From positions 1-30,265 of IMG/VR virus record IMGVR_UViG_3300032309_002580: a DNA stretch of 30,265 nucleotides. One strand, written 5' to 3'. Positions within the stretch are counted from its first letter, which is position 1, and every line of letters starts with the position of its first letter. The notes beneath the pieces were generated by a model. That model did no database searches and was not told the DNA's origin. It saw only the letters and a list, made by a program, of their open reading frames with translations. Source of the DNA: a virus. The position numbers were made by a program, and so were the translations under genes. Positions 1,923 through 23,567 of the stretch are shown here, one piece after another.

Positions 1923-4217
1923 TTATAATTCTTTGTATACTACAAATGCATCTAGTGCTATGTGAGAAAATGTCGATCCATAATCTGGCCCAAAATCTAG
2001 TCTCATTTGATTTATTTGAGTTATATCTAGAGATTGATTTTTCATGAAAAAATCCCCAGCTCTAAAGAAACAAAAATTAGGAACAGTTGGATAAGCACCA
2101 ACAAAAATAGGATTAGTTCTATTATCTATTTTAGTCTGTGGATAGAATCCCGTAGAATAATTTTTAGAACTTATTGTAGAATTATTTCCTGACGTATCTA
2201 TTAATGTAAGATTAAAATTAGAAAATTTATCATTTTTAGATATGCCAGATATACCGTGAATGTATGTATGACATGCTCTTAGACCAATATAGGTATTTTC
2301 AGATAAAACTATATTATTTATAAATGTATATCCTAGTTGTAAATTTGATTCTATTGGAACAAATAAAGATCTATATGAATTAAATATAATTCCATTATAT
2401 GTATCATTGTCCCAAAATTCTTCCAATGTTGGAGAATAACCACTATTTTGTAATATACAAAAACTTGTTTTCATTTCCAATAGATTATTAATATATGTTT
2501 GACCAACAATAAGAGTTGGATTGCCAGATAATAGGGTTGGATCTTGGTAAAAAGATGAATCTAATGTATAATCAAATGTAAATCCTAATGGATTTTGTAG
2601 CGTGAATCCTGTATTACCAGCAAAAGATAAGGTTAATCCATAAAAATTATCTATTTGTATGGCAATATCCTCAGCTATTGGATAAAACGAATGAAATGCT
2701 GCTATTTTTACATTATTCTTTACTATATTATTAATATTTTGTTTATGTGGAGAAATATATCTTAATTTTTTTAATTTATTATTAGAAAATACATTTATAC
2801 TTAAAAAGTATATTACCCAAGCTAAATTTTCATTTAGCACTAATCGATTTGAGTTTAAATAGTGATTATCAACATATCTTGGGCTAATACTAAAGCTATA
2901 TTCATCTTCTGGATATGTAGTTAAATCACTTAAGCCATTATGTTCCCTATTTGAAATTAAAATATATTTATCCAGATGATTTAACTTATCAGTATAACTA
3001 AATCCAGGATTAAATAATGAATTAGTATATCCAGCCATTATAGATTCATTATCATTTAATCCTACAATTACTACAGTTGGAATATCATGATCATATTGAT
3101 AATAGTGTAAATTATTATCATCTGGATTTACTATGGACTCTCCTTCTCCTGCCGCAAATCCACCAATATCTTCTCTTACAGTAATTCCATCAATTCCAGT
3201 GGTGAATTTTCCAACAGATCCAATAGTAACTAAAGCTTTTATATCGGAATAATCAAATGATATATTTGATATTTTTGAATAAATGGCATTTTTTCTTTTC
3301 ATCAAAGTGACAAGATTTTCGACAAAAAGTCCACCCAGACTAAGTCCAGAAAAAATAATTTTATTAAAATCAATTTTTAAATTGAATCTTCCAGAATTTA
3401 TCTTCGATATATTTTGCTTTAGATGATCTATTATTTGTAAAATATACACATCGCCAGTAGTTTGTAGATCTTCTGGTGTAATATAAACAGACACACAAAA
3501 ATAACCATAAGAAGCTAATGTTGATAAATAGCTATCAAATGTTTCAGTGTATTGTTTATTCCCATGCGTATATACAAACAGAGGCATTTTTTTGTTTATA
3601 TTAGATGAAAAAAAACATCTAATAGATTCAACACCAAGCATTGTTGGTTTTGAATTTATTATTTGTTGTCTTTCTGTGACTGTAAATTCATTGGGATTTA
3701 ATAAATCTAATTGTAAAAATTCAACATCATATGGTCCAGTTTCGTATGTGTTGAGACACATATTAAAATCGCTAACTATATCATTTGCTAGAAGTAGCTT
3801 TTGATCCCCAGTTCCATTTGAGCTTTGAAATATTCTAAATGCTATTCTATATTTTTTAAACAACTTATGAATATCATCTTCTGTGCAATGAAGAAGGATA
3901 TAATCATTTGTAAAATTATCGGTGATAGAAGATATATCTAAAACAATAAATCCATTTATTATATTAGATGCCGATAACGGGAATACTGTAGATACAAAAG
4001 TATCTGTTGTTGTCGCGGTTATAACTCTAACAAGTAAACTAAAATTTCCAATATTTCCAGAATTTATAGAAGTTCCTATTAATGAATTCAACATGTTAAT
4101 AGAAACTACAAAACTTATTGGAGTTTTTGCTATAAAAGTGTCATTTATAGCACATGGTAAATCTATAGATGGATTATTATCTGTTATTCGAATGCCAGTT
4201 AGAGTTTTTTGAATCAT
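1923..4217 (-). CDS. Virion-module protein with alpha/beta-hydrolase (esterase-like) domain
   Basis: This 764-residue protein has three apparent parts. Residues 1-180 are beta-rich with no recognised family. Residues about 200-480 look like an alpha/beta-hydrolase: an HG oxyanion-type motif at 218-219 (FVYTHGN), a nucleophile elbow G-L-S-L-G-G with Ser293, a candidate acid Asp389 after a hydrophobic strand (VVIVGLND), and a candidate base His426 (REHNG) followed by Gly. The order and spacing Ser-Asp-His fit the fold. Residues about 500-764 are a second beta-rich domain ending in FVVYKEL, possibly ligand-binding. The gene lies between two fibre-type genes, joined to the upstream one by a TAA-A-ATG junction, so it is probably virion-borne and may de-esterify a host surface glycan or lipid. 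The substrate is unknown. Its base composition looks more AT-rich than the baseplate genes, consistent with turnover of adhesin genes. Confidence 0.8.
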   Translation of the reverse strand: MIQKTLTGIRITDNNPSIDLPCAINDTFIAKTPISFVVSINMLNSLIGTSINSGNIGNFSLLVRVITATTTDTFVSTVFPLSASNIINGFIVLDISSITDNFTNDYILLHCTEDDIHKLFKKYRIAFRIFQSSNGTGDQKLLLANDIVSDFNMCLNTYETGPYDVEFLQLDLLNPNEFTVTERQQIINSKPTMLGVESIRCFFSSNINKKMPLFVYTHGNKQYTETFDSYLSTLASYGYFCVSVYITPEDLQTTGDVYILQIIDHLKQNISKINSGRFNLKIDFNKIIFSGLSLGGLFVENLVTLMKRKNAIYSKISNISFDYSDIKALVTIGSVGKFTTGIDGITVREDIGGFAAGEGESIVNPDDNNLHYYQYDHDIPTVVIVGLNDNESIMAGYTNSLFNPGFSYTDKLNHLDKYILISNREHNGLSDLTTYPEDEYSFSISPRYVDNHYLNSNRLVLNENLAWVIYFLSINVFSNNKLKKLRYISPHKQNINNIVKNNVKIAAFHSFYPIAEDIAIQIDNFYGLTLSFAGNTGFTLQNPLGFTFDYTLDSSFYQDPTLLSGNPTLIVGQTYINNLLEMKTSFCILQNSGYSPTLEEFWDNDTYNGIIFNSYRSLFVPIESNLQLGYTFINNIVLSENTYIGLRACHTYIHGISGISKNDKFSNFNLTLIDTSGNNSTISSKNYSTGFYPQTKIDNRTNPIFVGAYPTVPNFCFFRAGDFFMKNQSLDITQINQMRLDFGPDYGSTFSHIALDAFVVYKEL

Positions 4218-4218
4218 T

Positions 4219-6291
4219 TTATAAAACCAATATTTGTTGTATTATTTGTTGTGACGTTGAATTATATTTAAATATTTTTCCATTTAATAGAAAAAATTCT
4301 CCATTTGCATTGCTATAAAATTGAGCTTTACTAAAATCTTCATTTGTATTAAATTTTATAAATGTAGATGATGATAATGTAAATACCACAGTATATGTTG
4401 GTGTGCATATAAAAAATATAGAATTTGTTCCAAATAAATTAAAATATGTGAGGGCATTTAATTCTGGAATATCGGATGTTGTAAAATACTTTATAAATCC
4501 ATGACCAACAGTTGATGGTTCTATTGAATTTGTTTTTGGATTATATTCAAAATATCTAAATACTGTATTTTCATCATTCGTATAAAATGGAGCTCTGTAA
4601 ATATTTAGTTTTTTCTCTCCAGTTTCATAAAAATTGTATAATACAGCAGCAACAAATGAATTGGTAGTAGAGTACATTCTAGAACACAGAACTTCTCTTA
4701 TCTTATTTGCTACTAAAAATGATCCAGCCCCCCCGAACGTGCTATCAGCATCAACACTGTCTACATCGGAAAATATTGTATATGGCATTGGACCAGGCTT
4801 TACATAAAATCTACTTAAATCGGGCTGAAATCCATATATTGTTTTGTATGAATTATCTTCATAATAATAATTATTAATTTTTTTATGAATAATAAAATGA
4901 AAATTTGAACTCTGTAATTGATATTTTCTATTTGGTATTTGATAATTTTTAATAAAAAATGGAGTCAACGTGTTAGTAACAGTTGATATTTTTTCTGATC
5001 CTGTGATTCCACGTAACATGACCACAGCTTCAACTGGTTGTGTTGGGATTGAAATATTCTGATATCTAGGTAAAAGTATTGTGGTTTCTCTTGCTTTATA
5101 ATTTATCTGATCATCTTTTAGTGAAAATGTAGATAATGTATAATTTTTATTAAAACATTTTATATCAGAAGTTCTAAAAATACCAGGGGTTCTAATAAAA
5201 CTACCATTCGCTGGAATAGCAAAATTTTCATTGTCCTGACTATCTTTAATAAATCCTATTGCATTACGTTCATGACACTTTTTCCATTTATGTTTAAATC
5301 CAGTTATATTATTAACACTTCTTCTATAATATTTTATCTTAGAGGATATTGATGGTGTAATATGCCTACAGTCAATTGTGCTGGGTTCTCTATTCAATGA
5401 TCGCGTAGAAACTACCATTGAAGTCAATTCATCATCTGCTGCCCATAATTTATCTTCTGGTGATCCAGCGATATCAACGTTGATTATGCTCTTTAAAGTA
5501 TAAGTGGATCCAGATATGGAAATACAATATACTTTATTTGTATGCTTTGCAAATAATAAAATTGTATTTCCATCGTTTGATACCTTGCCTTCATAGTTTG
5601 AATTTATATTAAAATCAATTAAATCTAGACCTGGATCTATTGCTATATTGGAAAGCCTAGAAGAATGTAATTGCGTGGTAGAAAATAATCCATTAAACGT
5701 TAAATTTCTGACAAATAAGGTAAATGTATATGGATTAAATAGTAAAATCTTAGAAAGATCGTCCGATACATTTACTACCTTAAGAACTAGTGGGTTTGAA
5801 TCTTCTATTGTTATACTATTTACATAACCAAGATAATTTCTAACCAAACCAGTAAAAGATCCGTGTGGAGCATTATAATATACTGGTTTTATTATCATGT
5901 CTGTAAATGTTGGACCACAATTTTGTAAAAATCCAGAACTAGTTCCACTTAAAAAATAAATATCATTGCCACCATTATTAGTTCCAGTTATGTTAACTAA
6001 TCTATTTGCTGGTAGTGTTATGGATCCATTTGTAACAACATTTAAGGATAAATCAGATCCAACAGTTTCAACTATTCCAAATACTTCTGCATTTGCAGAA
6101 TCATTTGCCATTGAACGAACAAACTGATTTGCTATGCTATCAAAATGAATAACATCCCCAACCGTTATTCCCGCCGAATATTCTCCAAATAATAGTTTAG
6201 TAATTATTCTAGAGCTAAATCTAGACCCTTCATCTATATCGAAGACTTTTGTCTGTTTGTTTATTGTGGAATAATTTTTATCTAGACTCAT
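4219..6291 (-). CDS. Fibre/adhesin protein with duplicated N-terminal module
   Basis: This 690-residue protein begins with a roughly 160-residue module clearly paralogous to the whole of the next gene upstream. Shared landmarks are GSR near the start, GDVI-FD, EVFGIVETV, SLNVVT-GSI, NRL-N, GGND-YFLS, IKPVY and APHG. The same module recurs more distantly in the gp10-position protein. The rest is predicted beta-rich, with strand-like repeats such as KVSNDGNTILLFAKHTNKVY that could form a propeller or sandwich, but no named family was recognised. The start lies one base after the upstream stop (TAA-A-ATG) with no clear Shine-Dalgarno, suggesting translational coupling. A role as a tail-fibre or receptor-binding subunit is inferred from position and from the shared module. 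Composition is very AT-rich compared with the baseplate genes. Confidence 0.8.
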   Translation of the reverse strand: MSLDKNYSTINKQTKVFDIDEGSRFSSRIITKLLFGEYSAGITVGDVIHFDSIANQFVRSMANDSANAEVFGIVETVGSDLSLNVVTNGSITLPANRLVNITGTNNGGNDIYFLSGTSSGFLQNCGPTFTDMIIKPVYYNAPHGSFTGLVRNYLGYVNSITIEDSNPLVLKVVNVSDDLSKILLFNPYTFTLFVRNLTFNGLFSTTQLHSSRLSNIAIDPGLDLIDFNINSNYEGKVSNDGNTILLFAKHTNKVYCISISGSTYTLKSIINVDIAGSPEDKLWAADDELTSMVVSTRSLNREPSTIDCRHITPSISSKIKYYRRSVNNITGFKHKWKKCHERNAIGFIKDSQDNENFAIPANGSFIRTPGIFRTSDIKCFNKNYTLSTFSLKDDQINYKARETTILLPRYQNISIPTQPVEAVVMLRGITGSEKISTVTNTLTPFFIKNYQIPNRKYQLQSSNFHFIIHKKINNYYYEDNSYKTIYGFQPDLSRFYVKPGPMPYTIFSDVDSVDADSTFGGAGSFLVANKIREVLCSRMYSTTNSFVAAVLYNFYETGEKKLNIYRAPFYTNDENTVFRYFEYNPKTNSIEPSTVGHGFIKYFTTSDIPELNALTYFNLFGTNSIFFICTPTYTVVFTLSSSTFIKFNTNEDFSKAQFYSNANGEFFLLNGKIFKYNSTSQQIIQQILVL

Positions 6292-6292
6292 T

Positions 6293-6799
6293 TTAATCTA
6301 TGTCTATTATTGAATATCCAACGTAATTGACAACAGTTCCAGTGAATTCAGCTCCATGTGGGGCTCGTTGATAAACTGGCTTTACTATATTTCCAAGATT
6401 ACTTGGGGGAAGATTCTGTAATCTTCCAGCTTGTGATTCACTTAAAAAGTAAACATCGTTTCCACCAAAATTTGGCCCATCAAAATTGATTAGTCTATTT
6501 GATGGATAATTGATAGATCCATAAGTTACAACGTTAAGGGATCCATCTCCATTTACTGTTTCTACAATTCCAAATACTTCAGATGATGCAAGCGAACTTG
6601 CAACTGCTCTTGTGTATCCGTTCAAGGCAACATCAAATCGAATGACATCACCACCAGTAAGCCCTGGTGCTAGAAATCCAGCGTACTGATTAGTTAGATT
6701 AACCAGTAATCTTGATCCAGAGTTTGCACGCTGAACTGATATTTTTAGTTCAGACGATCTTATGTTTGAGCTATTGCTGGTATTGCTTGCGGATGGCAT
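6293..6799 (-). CDS. Small fibre-module protein, paralogue of neighbouring adhesins
   Basis: This 168-residue protein consists almost entirely of the module found at the N-terminus of the next gene downstream and in the middle of the gene upstream. Conserved features are GDVIRFD, EVFGIVETV, SLNVVTYGSI, GGNDVYFLSES, NIVKPVY and APHG. A GAGG-type ribosome-binding site overlapping the upstream stop codon (about 6806-6810) precedes the ATG at a good distance, so this start is well supported. Marine T4-like fibre proteins often contain domains with a YFLS(P)-x-G-L pattern, but a precise family name cannot be given. It occupies roughly the position of T4 gene 11, but no gp11 similarity is visible. 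It may be an accessory baseplate or fibre attachment subunit created by partial gene duplication. Confidence 0.8.
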   Translation of the reverse strand: MPSASNTSNSSNIRSSELKISVQRANSGSRLLVNLTNQYAGFLAPGLTGGDVIRFDVALNGYTRAVASSLASSEVFGIVETVNGDGSLNVVTYGSINYPSNRLINFDGPNFGGNDVYFLSESQAGRLQNLPPSNLGNIVKPVYQRAPHGAEFTGTVVNYVGYSIIDID

Positions 6800-6807
6800 G
6801 TATTACC

Positions 6808-9183
6808 TCATATCGTGAAGTCTGCATTTGCTACAACATTGAAATATATTTCATCATAGTTTACATAGCCAGATTGAGCGCATATATTTGCACCATGTAT
6901 CGATGGAGTAGCTGTGAGTGTAGTTGCATTCAATCTAGACTCGCGTACTGCATTTGCATATCCTACAGTTCCAGAAGTATTTCTCATGTCTAACTGAGCA
7001 GTCTTGTTGTATGCATCGTTTGCCACACCAGATAGCGGAGAATATATCGTGACTGTTGGTGTAATTCTCATTCTAGTTGGCCAACGAAGCATATTGCAGG
7101 CTTTGTTTGGTTGAATGAACATATCCAGCGAATTCTGCGTTGGTGTTGCTAAATCAGCCATAGTTATCGATCCAATGGTCTGATTTACATCGTAATTTGT
7201 ATAGTAGAATTGCTGGCAATAACGGAGTTGGTCTGGATAATCAAGATATATTGCATTTGGAATGCTGGAACCGATTGTGGCAACGAATGATGCCAGACTT
7301 ACGGTTACGTTCTGCCCAAGAGTAATTCCATTGATATTAGCCTGTTCCATCAGTGGAATGAAATCAACACCAACTTCACAGTAATCATTGTCTAGATCAA
7401 TGTCGATTCCATTGTTTTCCAAAGCTTCAATCGATGAATTGAATGTAAATGGTTGCCATGTTCCAGTTAGATTTGCAGTTCCAATCTTCTTGTAGTCTAT
7501 CAAAGACACACCAGAATATCTGCTGAAATAAACATCAACTGGATATAGATCGGACGAAACTTTTCCATAGAACTTGACGTTTAGATTGTTTAGATCAAAT
7601 TTCTTTGCTCCTGGAATGACATGTCCAACCATCAAGTGGTCGTAATCTGCATATGCACCAGAAGTTCCAGATGCACCAATGGCAGAAAGACCTAGATGCT
7701 TTATATCGATATAATATTGTGGATTTCCTTCGATTTCGGTCTGATATTCATCGAATTCGCTTCTTATTATAGAATAACTCTTCGATCCATTAGACCCCGT
7801 GACATCATCGTGTCTTCTCCACATATCAGCAAAGATCACATTACCAGTTGTTGTATATGCTGCTTCTCTGCCTACACTATCTCTCTGCCATACTTGGAAG
7901 TTTCCATTGACAAGATAGTTGATTCCTTGATTTAGTCCACCACTTGCTCCATCTGCCGTGATATAGGTAGCAGCTGAAGCTGGCAAAGACCTATTTGCAA
8001 CAAATCCAGATTTTGGTTTGTTTACTATTACGGCTCCGTTGGTAGAATACTTAATATATGCAATATGTTCAGATGGAGTCTTAGTATATTGTGGATTTGT
8101 CACTGGATCTGATGCATCATACAATGGATTCAGATAATATGTTCCAGCCGCCGACGAATTGAATATATCGGCAAAGCCATGTAGAGTTATTTCTAGGAAT
8201 CCAAGGCCACCAATATTAAATACATCGGTAACTATTCCAAGTGAATTTTCTGGTCGTATTTCAACCACACCACTTGCTGGTGGATTTGACCATGAAATAG
8301 ATCTTTCAGTCATCGATGCTATCAAAGCGTATCCATTTGGAATATCGCTTCCAGCAACCCCACCATAAAGTTCATACCCAAGAGCTATCATTTCTGCTCT
8401 GGCTTGACCCTGAACATCGATAAGAGAAACCATAGTTCCTTCGACAACTGTAGTTGAAGTCAGAACAGCAGATGATCCTGTATTGATGATAATTCTATCT
8501 ACAGCACCAGTTCCGCCACTAAATCCTTCAGAGTTTAGATAATTACCACGCATCTGGAGAACCATACCGACGTTTCCAGTAATTCCCATGATAACTGGCT
8601 TCGATACCTGTCCAGTTTGAATTGGCTCCACATCAGTAATCATTCCAGTAGAACCTGGATTCAAGAAGTAAATCCAGCCTGCGGTAAGACCAATTCCTCT
8701 GGAATTTACAGCAGTAAAATCTCCTGTTATTTGACCTAACAAAGTTACATATGAATATGTCGATGTTATTTCAGATACAACGCCGAAGACTTCAGCCTGA
8801 TCTGGATCATTTCCTCTGGCTGGTTCGTATTTATTCAAGCCAGTTGCGGTATCCCAATATACTCTGACTGGAGTACCGAAAGTATATCCACCAACAGTTG
8901 AATTGATTGAATTTACTCGTACTGAAATGTTTGGAATGGCAACAGAATTATTGAAATAAACAGGGCCATTGAAAGAAATACCATTATCAACTTTTCCACT
9001 AAGGCTGATTGTAGCCTTTCCAGTCAACGCAATTGGAGCAGTTATTCCATCACCACCTTCAACTGTGAAGGTGTTGATTAAATTTAATTTTTCTATGATT
9101 TCAGTATTTTCTTTTAGAAACCAATCGTAAAATGAACTATTTGAGTTCAGTTGTGATATTTGTGTGTCTCTATCTATAGCCAT
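6808..9183 (-). CDS. Tail fibre / short-fibre-like structural protein in the gp10 position
   Basis: This 791-residue protein starts with a helical segment (DWFLKENTEIIEKLN, about residues 19-34) of the type that anchors fibre proteins in T4-like marine phages. A GGDGI turn and beta-rich repeats follow. Residues about 100-215 carry the module shared with the two downstream genes (EVFGVVSEI, IYFLNPGSTG, GQVSKPV). A second, weaker copy may lie at about 250-395 (TYYLNP, HIAYIKYSTNGAVIVNKP). Near residue 416 there is NYLVNGNFQVWQRDS, a pattern I associate with the start of carbohydrate-binding-like domains at the ends of phage fibres. The remaining C-terminus looks like a beta-sandwich. It follows the gp8-gp9 region as T4 gene 10 does, so a baseplate-attached fibre is likely, but sequence orthology with gp10 is not claimed. 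Confidence 0.85.
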   Translation of the reverse strand: MAIDRDTQISQLNSNSSFYDWFLKENTEIIEKLNLINTFTVEGGDGITAPIALTGKATISLSGKVDNGISFNGPVYFNNSVAIPNISVRVNSINSTVGGYTFGTPVRVYWDTATGLNKYEPARGNDPDQAEVFGVVSEITSTYSYVTLLGQITGDFTAVNSRGIGLTAGWIYFLNPGSTGMITDVEPIQTGQVSKPVIMGITGNVGMVLQMRGNYLNSEGFSGGTGAVDRIIINTGSSAVLTSTTVVEGTMVSLIDVQGQARAEMIALGYELYGGVAGSDIPNGYALIASMTERSISWSNPPASGVVEIRPENSLGIVTDVFNIGGLGFLEITLHGFADIFNSSAAGTYYLNPLYDASDPVTNPQYTKTPSEHIAYIKYSTNGAVIVNKPKSGFVANRSLPASAATYITADGASGGLNQGINYLVNGNFQVWQRDSVGREAAYTTTGNVIFADMWRRHDDVTGSNGSKSYSIIRSEFDEYQTEIEGNPQYYIDIKHLGLSAIGASGTSGAYADYDHLMVGHVIPGAKKFDLNNLNVKFYGKVSSDLYPVDVYFSRYSGVSLIDYKKIGTANLTGTWQPFTFNSSIEALENNGIDIDLDNDYCEVGVDFIPLMEQANINGITLGQNVTVSLASFVATIGSSIPNAIYLDYPDQLRYCQQFYYTNYDVNQTIGSITMADLATPTQNSLDMFIQPNKACNMLRWPTRMRITPTVTIYSPLSGVANDAYNKTAQLDMRNTSGTVGYANAVRESRLNATTLTATPSIHGANICAQSGYVNYDEIYFNVVANADFTI

Positions 9184-9905: not shown

Positions 9906-11708
9906 TTAAAATCCTTTTACGATATTTATACGAAAAATCTTTGTATTTTCTGTATCGGTCGTAGCATTTCCAAAAGTCAAGGGACTATTCAAGACTTTTG
10001 TCTGTGCTACCTTACCACTATATTGCTTGAATGTTGGTTTATATTCGACCGAATCAACAGCATATACGGTTGAGTTTAACGTAACAGTTGAAATTTTTGA
10101 CACATCAGAATAGTTAATATTATTAATCTCTACCTTCAGGGATCCACCTGTAGTATCAATGTTTGTTACATCAACATCCGATAGAAGATTTCCATTGTCT
10201 AGAGTGGCCTCACCTACGATTCCAGGTTCTAGTCCAGGATCTGGGATACCAGTTAGAACCAACTTGCTGGTTGTTTTTTCTACATAAGTGTTGTCTTTAC
10301 CATATTGTGAGCCAGCTGTAATTTCCAGACCATCGTTCAATACTTCTATTGGATTTTCAACCAAAGCATAGAAATTAATGCGATTTGGTATTGATAGTCC
10401 TTCTTGCTTTAGGACATTTGTTTCTACTCGAATATCAAACATTATATTTTCAGCAGACAATGCAGCAACTGGATCGAAGTTTAATCCATCCAGGATGTCA
10501 AGATTTATTTCAATGGAAGCAATTAATTGATCTACTTGTGTGCTCGACAAGTAGGGGAATTTAGAATAATCGATTGATAAATGGTAATCCTTGTAACCTT
10601 CACCAGAGTTGGTCAAGGCAACTCCATCTATTATATGTTCGCCATTGGTGTTTATGTGCGTTATGAATCTAAGTGAAGCTCCAGAACCAGATGAACTTGT
10701 TATGGTTATTTCAGAATTGGCTTTGTCGATAACTAAATCTTCCTTGTTAAAGGCTGATAGATCGATAATTGCAGAAACTATACCACCGTCTGGAAGACCA
10801 TTTGCAGATATCGTATATAATGCATGATATGGAGATGCCGTAGATATTTGATTTGTTGTAACCAACTCTTCTATCTGATCGAATTTATCTTTTATTACTA
10901 TAGATTGTGGAACAGGTATTGATGTCGAATACTGAACGGAAGTATATCTATCATCATTCTCAAAAAGATAATAGCATTGCTGGCACGTAGATCTGAAGGA
11001 CAAATATATCTGACCTGGATTGTATGTGGTGAAATTTCCAAACGTTGTTTCTATTTGACTGGTGTTGTTGAAATAGACGGCGCAGTTTATTGATGAGCTT
11101 TGACTTCCATTGCAGAATCGTTCAGCACCATTGTATTTTGAAGTATCATTTGTCCTGAAATCATCAAAAGAAATTACTGGCATCCACGTTGAGTTGACGA
11201 ATCTTAGAAGATCTGCTGTTATTTTGTACAATGGTAGCCAAGTATATCCATCGGCATATGTTTTCAATCCATATGGGTGATTTGGAATCTGTGTGGAAAC
11301 ATTGGTTAGTGATAAGTCTTTTCTATTTAAGGAATTATTGGAAACACAAAGATATACAATATTGTTTGTCTTGTTCCAGACATAATAGGAGTCAGTATTT
11401 CTAGCTCCACTCATCCAGTAATTGTAAACATTTCCTGCGGCCCATGTTCTATTTGGAACCACGGCAATCGAATCTTTTTTGCCAACGCGATAAGACATTT
11501 CGGATGTTCTCCAAATGTCAATACTGCTAGTTGTTGTATTGCTAGAAATATTATTTGGTGTATTTCCGAACAGAAAAAACACCTGGTTCTTACTTCCAAT
11601 ATCTCTTAAATACGATTTTAGTGTATTTGATTTATTTAACATTTTAGCAATTCGCGCAAGATTTATCGTCGTTTGGGCTAGTAATTCCGCTACTGTAGCA
11701 GAGCTCAA
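9906..11708 (-). CDS. gp8: Baseplate wedge protein, gp8-like
   Basis: This resembles T4 gp8, a wedge subunit, and follows gp6 and the gp7-position gene as in T4. Landmarks are a short N-terminal helix then IGSKNQVFFLFGN (compare the IFITFG strand near the gp8 start), YVWNKTNNIVYLCVSNNS at residues 109-126, and ADGYTWLPLYKI at 152-163, the DGY-W-x-x-L/Y signature of gp8-type proteins. At 600 residues it is much longer than T4 gp8 (334), with an extended beta-rich C-terminal half. The longest frame starts at 11708 and overlaps the upstream gene by 65 bases. The internal ATG at 11642 (Met23) forms a TAA-A-ATG junction identical to that of neighbouring genes and lies downstream of a TATAAATA box, so 11642 may be the true start. 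Neither start has a strong Shine-Dalgarno. Confidence 0.8.
   Translation of the reverse strand: MSSATVAELLAQTTINLARIAKMLNKSNTLKSYLRDIGSKNQVFFLFGNTPNNISSNTTTSSIDIWRTSEMSYRVGKKDSIAVVPNRTWAAGNVYNYWMSGARNTDSYYVWNKTNNIVYLCVSNNSLNRKDLSLTNVSTQIPNHPYGLKTYADGYTWLPLYKITADLLRFVNSTWMPVISFDDFRTNDTSKYNGAERFCNGSQSSSINCAVYFNNTSQIETTFGNFTTYNPGQIYLSFRSTCQQCYYLFENDDRYTSVQYSTSIPVPQSIVIKDKFDQIEELVTTNQISTASPYHALYTISANGLPDGGIVSAIIDLSAFNKEDLVIDKANSEITITSSSGSGASLRFITHINTNGEHIIDGVALTNSGEGYKDYHLSIDYSKFPYLSSTQVDQLIASIEINLDILDGLNFDPVAALSAENIMFDIRVETNVLKQEGLSIPNRINFYALVENPIEVLNDGLEITAGSQYGKDNTYVEKTTSKLVLTGIPDPGLEPGIVGEATLDNGNLLSDVDVTNIDTTGGSLKVEINNINYSDVSKISTVTLNSTVYAVDSVEYKPTFKQYSGKVAQTKVLNSPLTFGNATTDTENTKIFRINIVKGF
9923..9930 (-). 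promoter_or_regulatory. Possible late promoter box TATAAATA
   Basis: A perfect TATAAATA on the minus strand sits 20 bases before the start of the FRPG-motif gene (9902), at the end of gp8. The spacing leaves room for an AAAGGA ribosome-binding site in a short leader. Chance occurrence in AT-rich DNA cannot be excluded. Confidence 0.45.
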
Positions 11709-22689: not shown

Positions 22690-23379
22690 ATGAATTTAAA
22701 AAATGCTCTGACGGAATCTTTGCCAAAATATTCATGCGACTTACCTTACAGCAAGATAAAAACAAAATTTAGACCATTTCTCGTCAAGGAAGAGAAAAAG
22801 CTTCTAATTCTTGAGGAAACATCATCCCAAGCAGAAATCTACAATGGCATAATAGAAGTTCTCGAAGCTTGCTTTTCTGAAAATGTAGATTTCAGAAAAC
22901 TCCCTCTATTTGAGGTTGAATATTGCTTCCTTAAACTAAGAGCAAAATCTGTCGGTGAACTTATAGCCCCCAAAATAGTATGTCCAGTGACTGGTGAATC
23001 CCATGTCGTGTCCGTGGATTTAAATGAAATAAATCTAAAGATCACCGAAAATCCAGAATCAATAGAGCTTGGCAATAACTTTATATTGCACATGCGTTAC
23101 CCATCAGTTGGCGATTTGATAGACGACAGTGGGGACATCAACACGCTAGTTTCAAATTGCATCATTTCTTTTGAAGATAAAACTGAAAAGGTAGAGGCAG
23201 ATAACTTCTCCAAGAGCGAGATCAAAGACTTTCTGGAGAACATGACCAGCTCCCAGTACGAAAAAATAATAGCATTTTTTGAGAAAATGCCATCGCTTGA
23301 GATCAAAGTTCAATACCAGACCAAAGATTTGGAGGTTAGAGAGCTAACACTCAAGGGGATAAAGGATTTTTTTTCCTAA
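22690..23379 (+). CDS. gp26: Baseplate hub assembly / tail chaperone, gp26 family
   Basis: This 229-residue protein matches the T4 gp26/gp51 type (T4 baseplate assembly family). Landmarks are KTKFRPFLVKEEKKLL and the diagnostic FEVEYCFLKLRAKSVGE (about residues 75-95), followed by CPVTGESH, a likely loop. Later parts include LHMRYPSVGDL and a helical C-terminus. In T4 these proteins help assemble the central hub. A TAGGA ribosome-binding site precedes the ATG by about seven bases. The gene ends GAT TTT TTT TCC TAA. The eight-T run (23367-23374) is a canonical slippery sequence, and the -1 frame is open into the next reading frame. It may therefore make two products, 229 residues and about 292 residues, like the lambda G/GT and P2 E/E' chaperones that precede tape measure genes. 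Confidence 0.9.
   Translation: MNLKNALTESLPKYSCDLPYSKIKTKFRPFLVKEEKKLLILEETSSQAEIYNGIIEVLEACFSENVDFRKLPLFEVEYCFLKLRAKSVGELIAPKIVCPVTGESHVVSVDLNEINLKITENPESIELGNNFILHMRYPSVGDLIDDSGDINTLVSNCIISFEDKTEKVEADNFSKSEIKDFLENMTSSQYEKIIAFFEKMPSLEIKVQYQTKDLEVRELTLKGIKDFFS
23367..23374 (+). promoter_or_regulatory. Predicted -1 ribosomal frameshift site (T TTT TTT T)
   Basis: Eight consecutive T residues are positioned so that in the gp26 frame they read as the last base of GAT, then TTT, TTT, then the first base of TCC, two codons before TAA. A -1 slip on T TTT TTT would next read TTC and then continue without a stop to TAA at 23565. The site, the position next to the zero-frame stop, and the location immediately before a tape measure gene match known tail-chaperone frameshifts. 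No strong downstream stem is seen; a weak CTCA/TGAG pairing occurs about 25-45 bases on. Confidence 0.7.
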
Positions 23380-23417
23380 CCCTTAGTCATATATCACTCA
23401 GAAATTATTTTGAGATA

Positions 23418-23567
23418 ATGTATATCTTGACTAAGCACTATAAATATTCTTTAAGTGATTTAGAAACCATGTTGCCCTGGGAGAGAGACATCTACATCGA
23501 ACAGCTAAAAGCAGATGTAGAAAAGGAAAAGACCAAGAATAAAACATGGAACAAATCATGGAGATAA
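23418..23567 (+). CDS. Small tail-chaperone C-terminal reading frame (probable frameshift extension of gp26)
   Basis: From the ATG at 23418 the frame encodes 49 residues, including HYKYSLSDLETMLPWERDIY and a basic, Lys-rich end. The same frame is open back to the slippery run at 23373, adding about 15 residues, with ISLRNYFEIMYILTKHY reading smoothly across the ATG. This suggests the segment is normally translated as a 64-residue extension of the gp26-family protein. Small proteins with a 'Y-x-Y-S-x-x-D-L-E-x-M-L-P-x-E-R-D-I-Y' core accompany gp26 in T4-like marine phages. In lambda and P2 the equivalent extension recruits the tape measure. The end overlaps the tape measure start by 22 bases. 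If translated alone, it has only a weak GAG upstream. Confidence 0.8.
   Translation: MYILTKHYKYSLSDLETMLPWERDIYIEQLKADVEKEKTKNKTWNKSWR
23439..23446 (+). promoter_or_regulatory. Possible T4-type late promoter box TATAAATA
   Basis: A perfect TATAAATA lies 100 bases before the tape measure start, inside the gp26 extension frame where it encodes Tyr-Lys-Tyr. T4-like phages use this -10 motif with gp55, gp33 and the sliding clamp. In AT-rich DNA the octamer is expected several times by chance in a window this size, so only its position next to a large structural gene supports it. Confidence 0.35.

Follow-up and report, generated by a model that had tools for sequence, protein, structure and literature searches.

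In the gpG/gpGT system of phage lambda and the E/E'-T system of phage P2, a short gene ends in a slippery site, an extension follows in the -1 frame and the tape measure gene lies adjacent. For T4, the products gp26 and gp51 have been described as hub assembly chaperones in a review of the T4 tail, where the function of gp51 is given as unknown (PMC3004832). As cited in two later papers (PMC10885494; PMC12846349), the tail assembly chaperone (TAC) genes of T4-like phages were identified by Vladimirov, Gautam & Davidson (2022; Virology 566:9-15). In the citing text, some T4-like phages are described as having a short gene together with a longer gene that is a fusion (PMC10885494), and poly-T is given as a known -1 signal in the TAC-N genes of these phages (PMC12846349).

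Here, a stretch of 30,265 nucleotides of viral DNA (the window) was analysed, which contains a gp26-family gene followed by an open -1 frame. An earlier note on this DNA had compared the layout with that of G/GT of lambda and E/E'-T of P2, and this is supported by the slippery heptamer, the -1 extension and the tape-measure-like open reading frame (ORF) that comes next. The slippery sequence, in contrast, is a different one, and the likeness to these systems is one of layout. The earlier note had furthermore supposed that such an arrangement was not established for T4 gp26. This did not hold, since T4-like TACs that use frameshifting had been published by 2022, with T4 genes 26 and 51 representing the two-gene variant, as far as the citing papers relate. 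Judged by the same accounts, the window shares with those TACs the gp26/gp51 family, the poly-T slippery site and the presence of a short and a long form, and it differs from them in no way of kind. It is a T4-like TAC of a sort already known, and the frameshift reading is not new. In contrast, the frames are reversed in a sister clade, called the T10 clade here, which merits a closer look by specialists.

T4 itself has two separate, oppositely oriented genes and no frameshift. Its gp26 (208 aa) covers the short part only and ends at GLKEFF like the short form (C-terminus ...GLKEFFELL), whereas gp51 (249 aa) matches phrog_150 from end to end as well as phrog_634 in a single frame and represents the long form encoded in frame. 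T4 gp51, with the two parts joined in a single frame, shows that such a fusion exists as a protein among kin. The abstract of the 2022 study reportedly names genes 26 and 51. Two phrog_150 copies are present in T4, Aeromonas phage 31 and Pseudotevenvirus vB_Cfr_Xman, and one copy is present in Mendera, Vibrio phage K448 and Salmonella phage SJ2.

The probable chaperone gene of the window

The features of the locus are collected in Table 1.

Table 1. Features of the chaperone locus, in window coordinates
Feature	Position	Strand	Evidence
gp26-family gene, short tail assembly chaperone (TAC-N), 229 aa	22690..23379	+	PF12322 E 2.1e-49; phrog_150 E 7.7e-53
Shine-Dalgarno-like AAGGGG, 8 nt 5' of the heptamer, putative stimulator	23353..23358	+	sequence; tetramer in 149/165 junctions
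T8 run containing the slippery heptamer T_TTT_TTT (23367-23373)	23367..23374	+	sequence; T_TTT_TTY/A in 165/165 distinct junctions
-1 frame extension, 64 codons and stop, gp51-like TAC-C domain	23373..23567	+	phrog_634 E 1.2e-18; phrog_150 C-terminus; constraint
Zero-frame stop TAA of TAC-N, 1 codon past the heptamer	23377..23379	+	1-codon spacing in 147/165 junctions
Predicted RNA hairpin, 8-nt spacer, putative stimulator	23382..23435	+	-15.0 kcal/mol, z -3.57
Tape-measure-like ORF, 1243 aa	23546..27277	+	phrog_15478 tail length tape measure E 1.5e-7; position

Read directly from the sequence, the zero frame of the gp26-family gene ends in GAT TTT TTT TCC TAA. The T-run reported near the stop is therefore confirmed, with TCC as the single sense codon between the heptamer and TAA. 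No stop interrupts the -1 frame between 23340 and 23564; counted from 23373, this frame comprises 64 codons before its stop at 23565-23567. Its phrog_634 match carries the annotation 'baseplate hub assembly catalyst', that is the gp51 family, and its match to the C-terminus of phrog_150 is weak. Together, 228 gp26 codons and the 64-codon extension would give a TAC-NC of 292 aa. The earlier note had described this frame and a 22-nt overlap with the tape measure start. The frame stands as described; the overlap amounts to 22 nt from the first ATG of the next ORF (23546) and to 10 nt if the second one (23558) is the start. The phrog_15478 match of this ORF spans 83 residues, and the chaperone lies directly upstream. 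An ATG inside the extension had been taken for the only one, but two are present, at 23418 and 23469.

From the sequence, it is very likely that this is a T4-like tail assembly chaperone gene in which a -1 frameshift adds the gp51-like domain, resulting in the 292-aa TAC-NC. Most ribosomes would terminate at 23377 and release TAC-N. A minority would pause, with the Shine-Dalgarno (SD)-like element on the 5' side and the hairpin on the 3' side, slip back by one base on T_TTT_TTT and translate the 64 further codons that carry the gp51-like domain. By analogy with lambda gpG/gpGT, the tape-measure protein may be coated by many TAC-N and few TAC-NC, and the extra domain of TAC-NC may recruit tail-tube subunits. 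What the sequences show directly is the signals, how well they are conserved and the constraint on the amino acids; we infer the shift, its efficiency and, from family, position and analogy, the chaperone role of the gp26/gp51 product.

By sequence, no solved structure resembling gp26 or gp51 was found. A model predicted for a long-form homologue from the T10 clade (L219, mean pLDDT 91.5) matches proteins of the gp26/gp51 family among predicted viral structures, and a comparison with the PDB, including the fold of solved TACs, revealed nothing convincing. A profile search of cellular genomes yielded no relatives. Within the 30-kb record, which is a fragment, the gp26 protein matched its own gene only.

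Conservation of the junction among relatives

A set of 195 sequences was assembled from scans that used gp26 or the extension as the query and from isolated phages. Both parts are present in 188 IMG/VR and phage loci, and 165 distinct junctions were left after identical ones had been dropped; loci from the extension-profile scan were selected for the extension and not for its frame or T-run. The extension follows in the -1 frame directly after gp26 in 187 of the 188 loci and belongs to the same ORF in one (L025), so that a small gene split off or placed elsewhere, the contrary outcome named in the earlier note, was not encountered. In all 165 junctions the heptamer is in register with the open -1 frame, and the alignment over related phages proposed in that note thus reveals a conserved slippery run as well as a conserved frame. 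The run is T6 in 139 junctions, T7 in nine and T8 in 17, with T7-T8 in the clade of the window. As a control, other FF pairs in the same genes read NNT TTT TTY in only 8 of 166 cases. From the residues and the codon usage, the Ts would be expected by chance in about 48% of the sequences, compared to 165 of 165 observed. The conservation of the heptamer is far beyond chance, also when relatedness is allowed for.

The layout of the window is also present in the isolated phages Bellamy, HTVC008M, Melnitz-3, Mendera, G2, PhiW-14 and Atu_ph07, and TTTTTTC together with a -1 extension is found in Mendera, Aeromonas G2, Delftia PhiW-14 and Atu_ph07. Homopolymers are prone to error, and the frame break could accordingly be ascribed to sequencing or assembly. 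However, the break is seen in isolated phages as well as in 165 distinct junctions, most of which have a C after T6, and the T-run is found again in independent assemblies. An error in the homopolymer has therefore a negligible probability and is in practice already refuted.

As a separate observation, Vibrio phage K448 (L201:2342-3258) and Salmonella phage SJ2 (L203:2342-3306) retain the -1 extension with the weaker runs ACTTTTC and AATTTTC, respectively, and have no canonical tandem heptamer.

The coding constraint was determined for 14 codons, which start at the second codon past the slip and lie before the first ATG of the extension in the window. Here, the -1 frame has a pN/pS of 0.153 within the window clade (n=11) and of 0.48 when all sequences are taken together, and none of 200 column permutations reached a value as low as the observed one, while the other two frames are at about 1 or above. 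Stops within these codons are absent from the -1 frame in all 165 sequences and occur in 162 and 150 of them in the other frames. Amino-acid constraint between slip site and ATG, as looked for in the earlier note, is thus present. The position of the first ATG of the extension is not conserved among relatives, which together with the low pN/pS upstream of it makes a separate start an unlikely main source of the segment.

These data bear on the reading that translation of the gp51-like segment begins at one of the internal ATGs, perhaps by termination-reinitiation, and yields a small protein of its own. Cyanophage and pelagiphage records do contain a separate CDS for this segment, and ATGs are available in the extension frame. 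Nevertheless, the constraint reaches from these ATGs upstream to the slip site, the place of the first ATG varies, and a separate start would leave the heptamer and the stimulators unexplained. Furthermore, the fused form is read in a single frame in T4 gp51 and in the T10 clade. For the window taken by itself, a start at 23418 or 23469 is still conceivable. A separate protein is therefore highly improbable, and the fusion of gp26 with the small -1 frame, as already proposed, is supported by heptamer, frame, constraint before the ATG, stimulators and position.

Of the 165 junctions, 149 have an SD-like tetramer at a distance of 6-20 nt on the 5' side of the heptamer, compared to a background of 11.7% in random 15-nt windows from the same genes. 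At this site, a conserved Glu is encoded by GAG in 93 of 121 cases versus 27% elsewhere (p 3e-30), which indicates a signal at the DNA level and not only at the protein level. On the 3' side, the first 60 nt fold more stably than expected from synonymous recoding (mean z -2.01 over n=165; -0.45 for a later segment). For the hairpin of the window, none of 200 shuffles was equally stable; its shape differs among relatives, and an Rfam search at the slip site gave no match.

Instead of the ribosome, RNA polymerase slipping on the T-run might change the frame in the family of the window. Bacterial RNA polymerase is slippery at runs of nine A or T (reviewed in PMC5009743). In line with this, the window clade has runs of T7-T8, and sites lacking the SD-like element are richer in such runs (Fisher p 0.0047, kinship uncorrected). 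On the contrary, 139 of the 165 junctions have T6 only, which is shorter than such a run, and the T8 of the window itself stays below a run of nine or more A/T. Since the SD-like element and the hairpin are ribosomal stimulators and the window retains both, transcriptional slippage is very unlikely here, and the ribosomal -1 frameshift is the preferred reading for this family.

The sister clade with a run of ten Ts

The T10 clade consists of 12 IMG/VR loci (L195/L025, L196, L197/L198/L255, L219/L250, L220/L251, L221/L256, L222/L252, L253, L254, L257, L258 and L262). A tree of the short part recovers it as monophyletic (100/100) and places it together with the window clade (100/99, 22 rows). 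Here, one uninterrupted ORF of 283-293 aa encodes the long form in frame 0 and runs through AAT TTT TTT TTT at the homologous place, and the run is exactly T10 in all 12 loci. An example is L219, where the long form spans 3001-3867 with T10 at 3672-3681 (L219/L250 lies on a contig of 153.8 kb). The same T10 is seen in both members of near-identical pairs that come from different metagenomes, and an assembly error is accordingly less likely. The search with the T10 pattern also returned L213, L217 and L218, which are unrelated chance matches.

In the +1 frame, the third codon is a stop in all 12 loci, with varying codons (ATA, CTA, TTA, TTG or CTG, then A). The -1 frame meets an immediate TGA, TAG or TAA in 11 of 12, and an SD-like element in the stimulating range was found in none of the 12. 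As a side observation, L251 has ATT for AGT after T10 when compared with the near-identical L250 from a different metagenome, and the immediate -1 stop is gone.

Judged by these sequences, we somewhat favour the view that the T10 clade is recoded inversely: normal decoding would result in the long form, and slippage, probably that of RNA polymerase, would lead into the stops and yield the short form. If a transcript gained or lost one U, translation would meet a stop immediately or no later than the third codon. Should this clade require a short form like the rest of the family, it would come from slippage at T10. A ribosomal -1 shift giving the short form is possible as well, and the clade could also need the long form only. 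In addition, its short gene could lie elsewhere and have been missed. Contigs of 153.8, 61.4, 48.6 and 31.7 kb, which are maybe incomplete, yielded only one phrog_150 gene each; the same search recovers both copies of T4.

In these AT-rich genomes, a T10 run is by itself no rarity. When the residues NFFF and the codon usage are taken into account, T10 departs only mildly from expectation (log10 P -3.1 for the 12 related loci), and for the codons compatible with a +1 stop the value is log10 P -1.2. The case for inverse recoding rests therefore more on the homologous position, the exact length in repeated assemblies, the loss of the SD-like element and the stops.

Similar arrangements are known from bacteria. 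In Thermus dnaX, RNA polymerase slippage combined with stops in both non-zero frames leads to a short product (PMC5009743). The T10 clade shares with Thermus thermophilus dnaX the long product in frame 0, a homopolymer of at least nine and the stops in both other frames, and with tssM3 of Yersinia pseudotuberculosis (PMC4256274) the long product in frame 0, a homopolymer of at least nine and a short product by slippage, which was measured in these two unrelated genes and is only inferred for the T10 clade. In the literature covered, which includes Vladimirov et al. (2022) as cited by later papers, no earlier report of the inverted T10 arrangement was found. The window clade, with its T7-T8 runs and partly lost SD-like element, may represent a route to it.

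Neighbouring genes and meaning for the family

The ORF 3' of the chaperone differs widely in length. In the T10 clade it mostly encodes 169-219 aa (L219:3864-4430, L222:3864-4373, L221:3857-4474, L258:3872-4414), with 579-627 aa in L195 and L196. About 300-316 aa are found in relatives of the window (L009, L010, L013, L019, L021), and 1243 aa in the window itself. A C-terminal PxWRxxxG is common to many of these ORFs, and the 1243-aa protein shares its N- and C-terminal parts with those of 312 aa, with about 900 extra residues in between. If this ORF is the tape measure, predicted tail lengths vary greatly. Elsewhere in the window, five large ORFs (168-791 aa) on the minus strand before the baseplate wedge genes (1923-9183 and 9906-11708) had no PHROGs match at E 0.001, and the head-closure (gp4-like) gene at 21608-22045 matches a TnsA-like endonuclease N-terminal domain (E 1.3e-19).

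For freshwater and marine T4-like phages, gp26 and a small gp51 that are annotated as two genes are best read as one frameshifted chaperone gene, to which the window adds two conserved putative stimulators and quantitative support. If the inverse recoding is true, the T10 clade would represent a third route to two chaperones in T4-like phages, beside frameshifting and two genes. One gene family would then use three expression strategies for two chaperone forms, and the switch from ribosomal to probable transcriptional slippage would be traceable on a tree.
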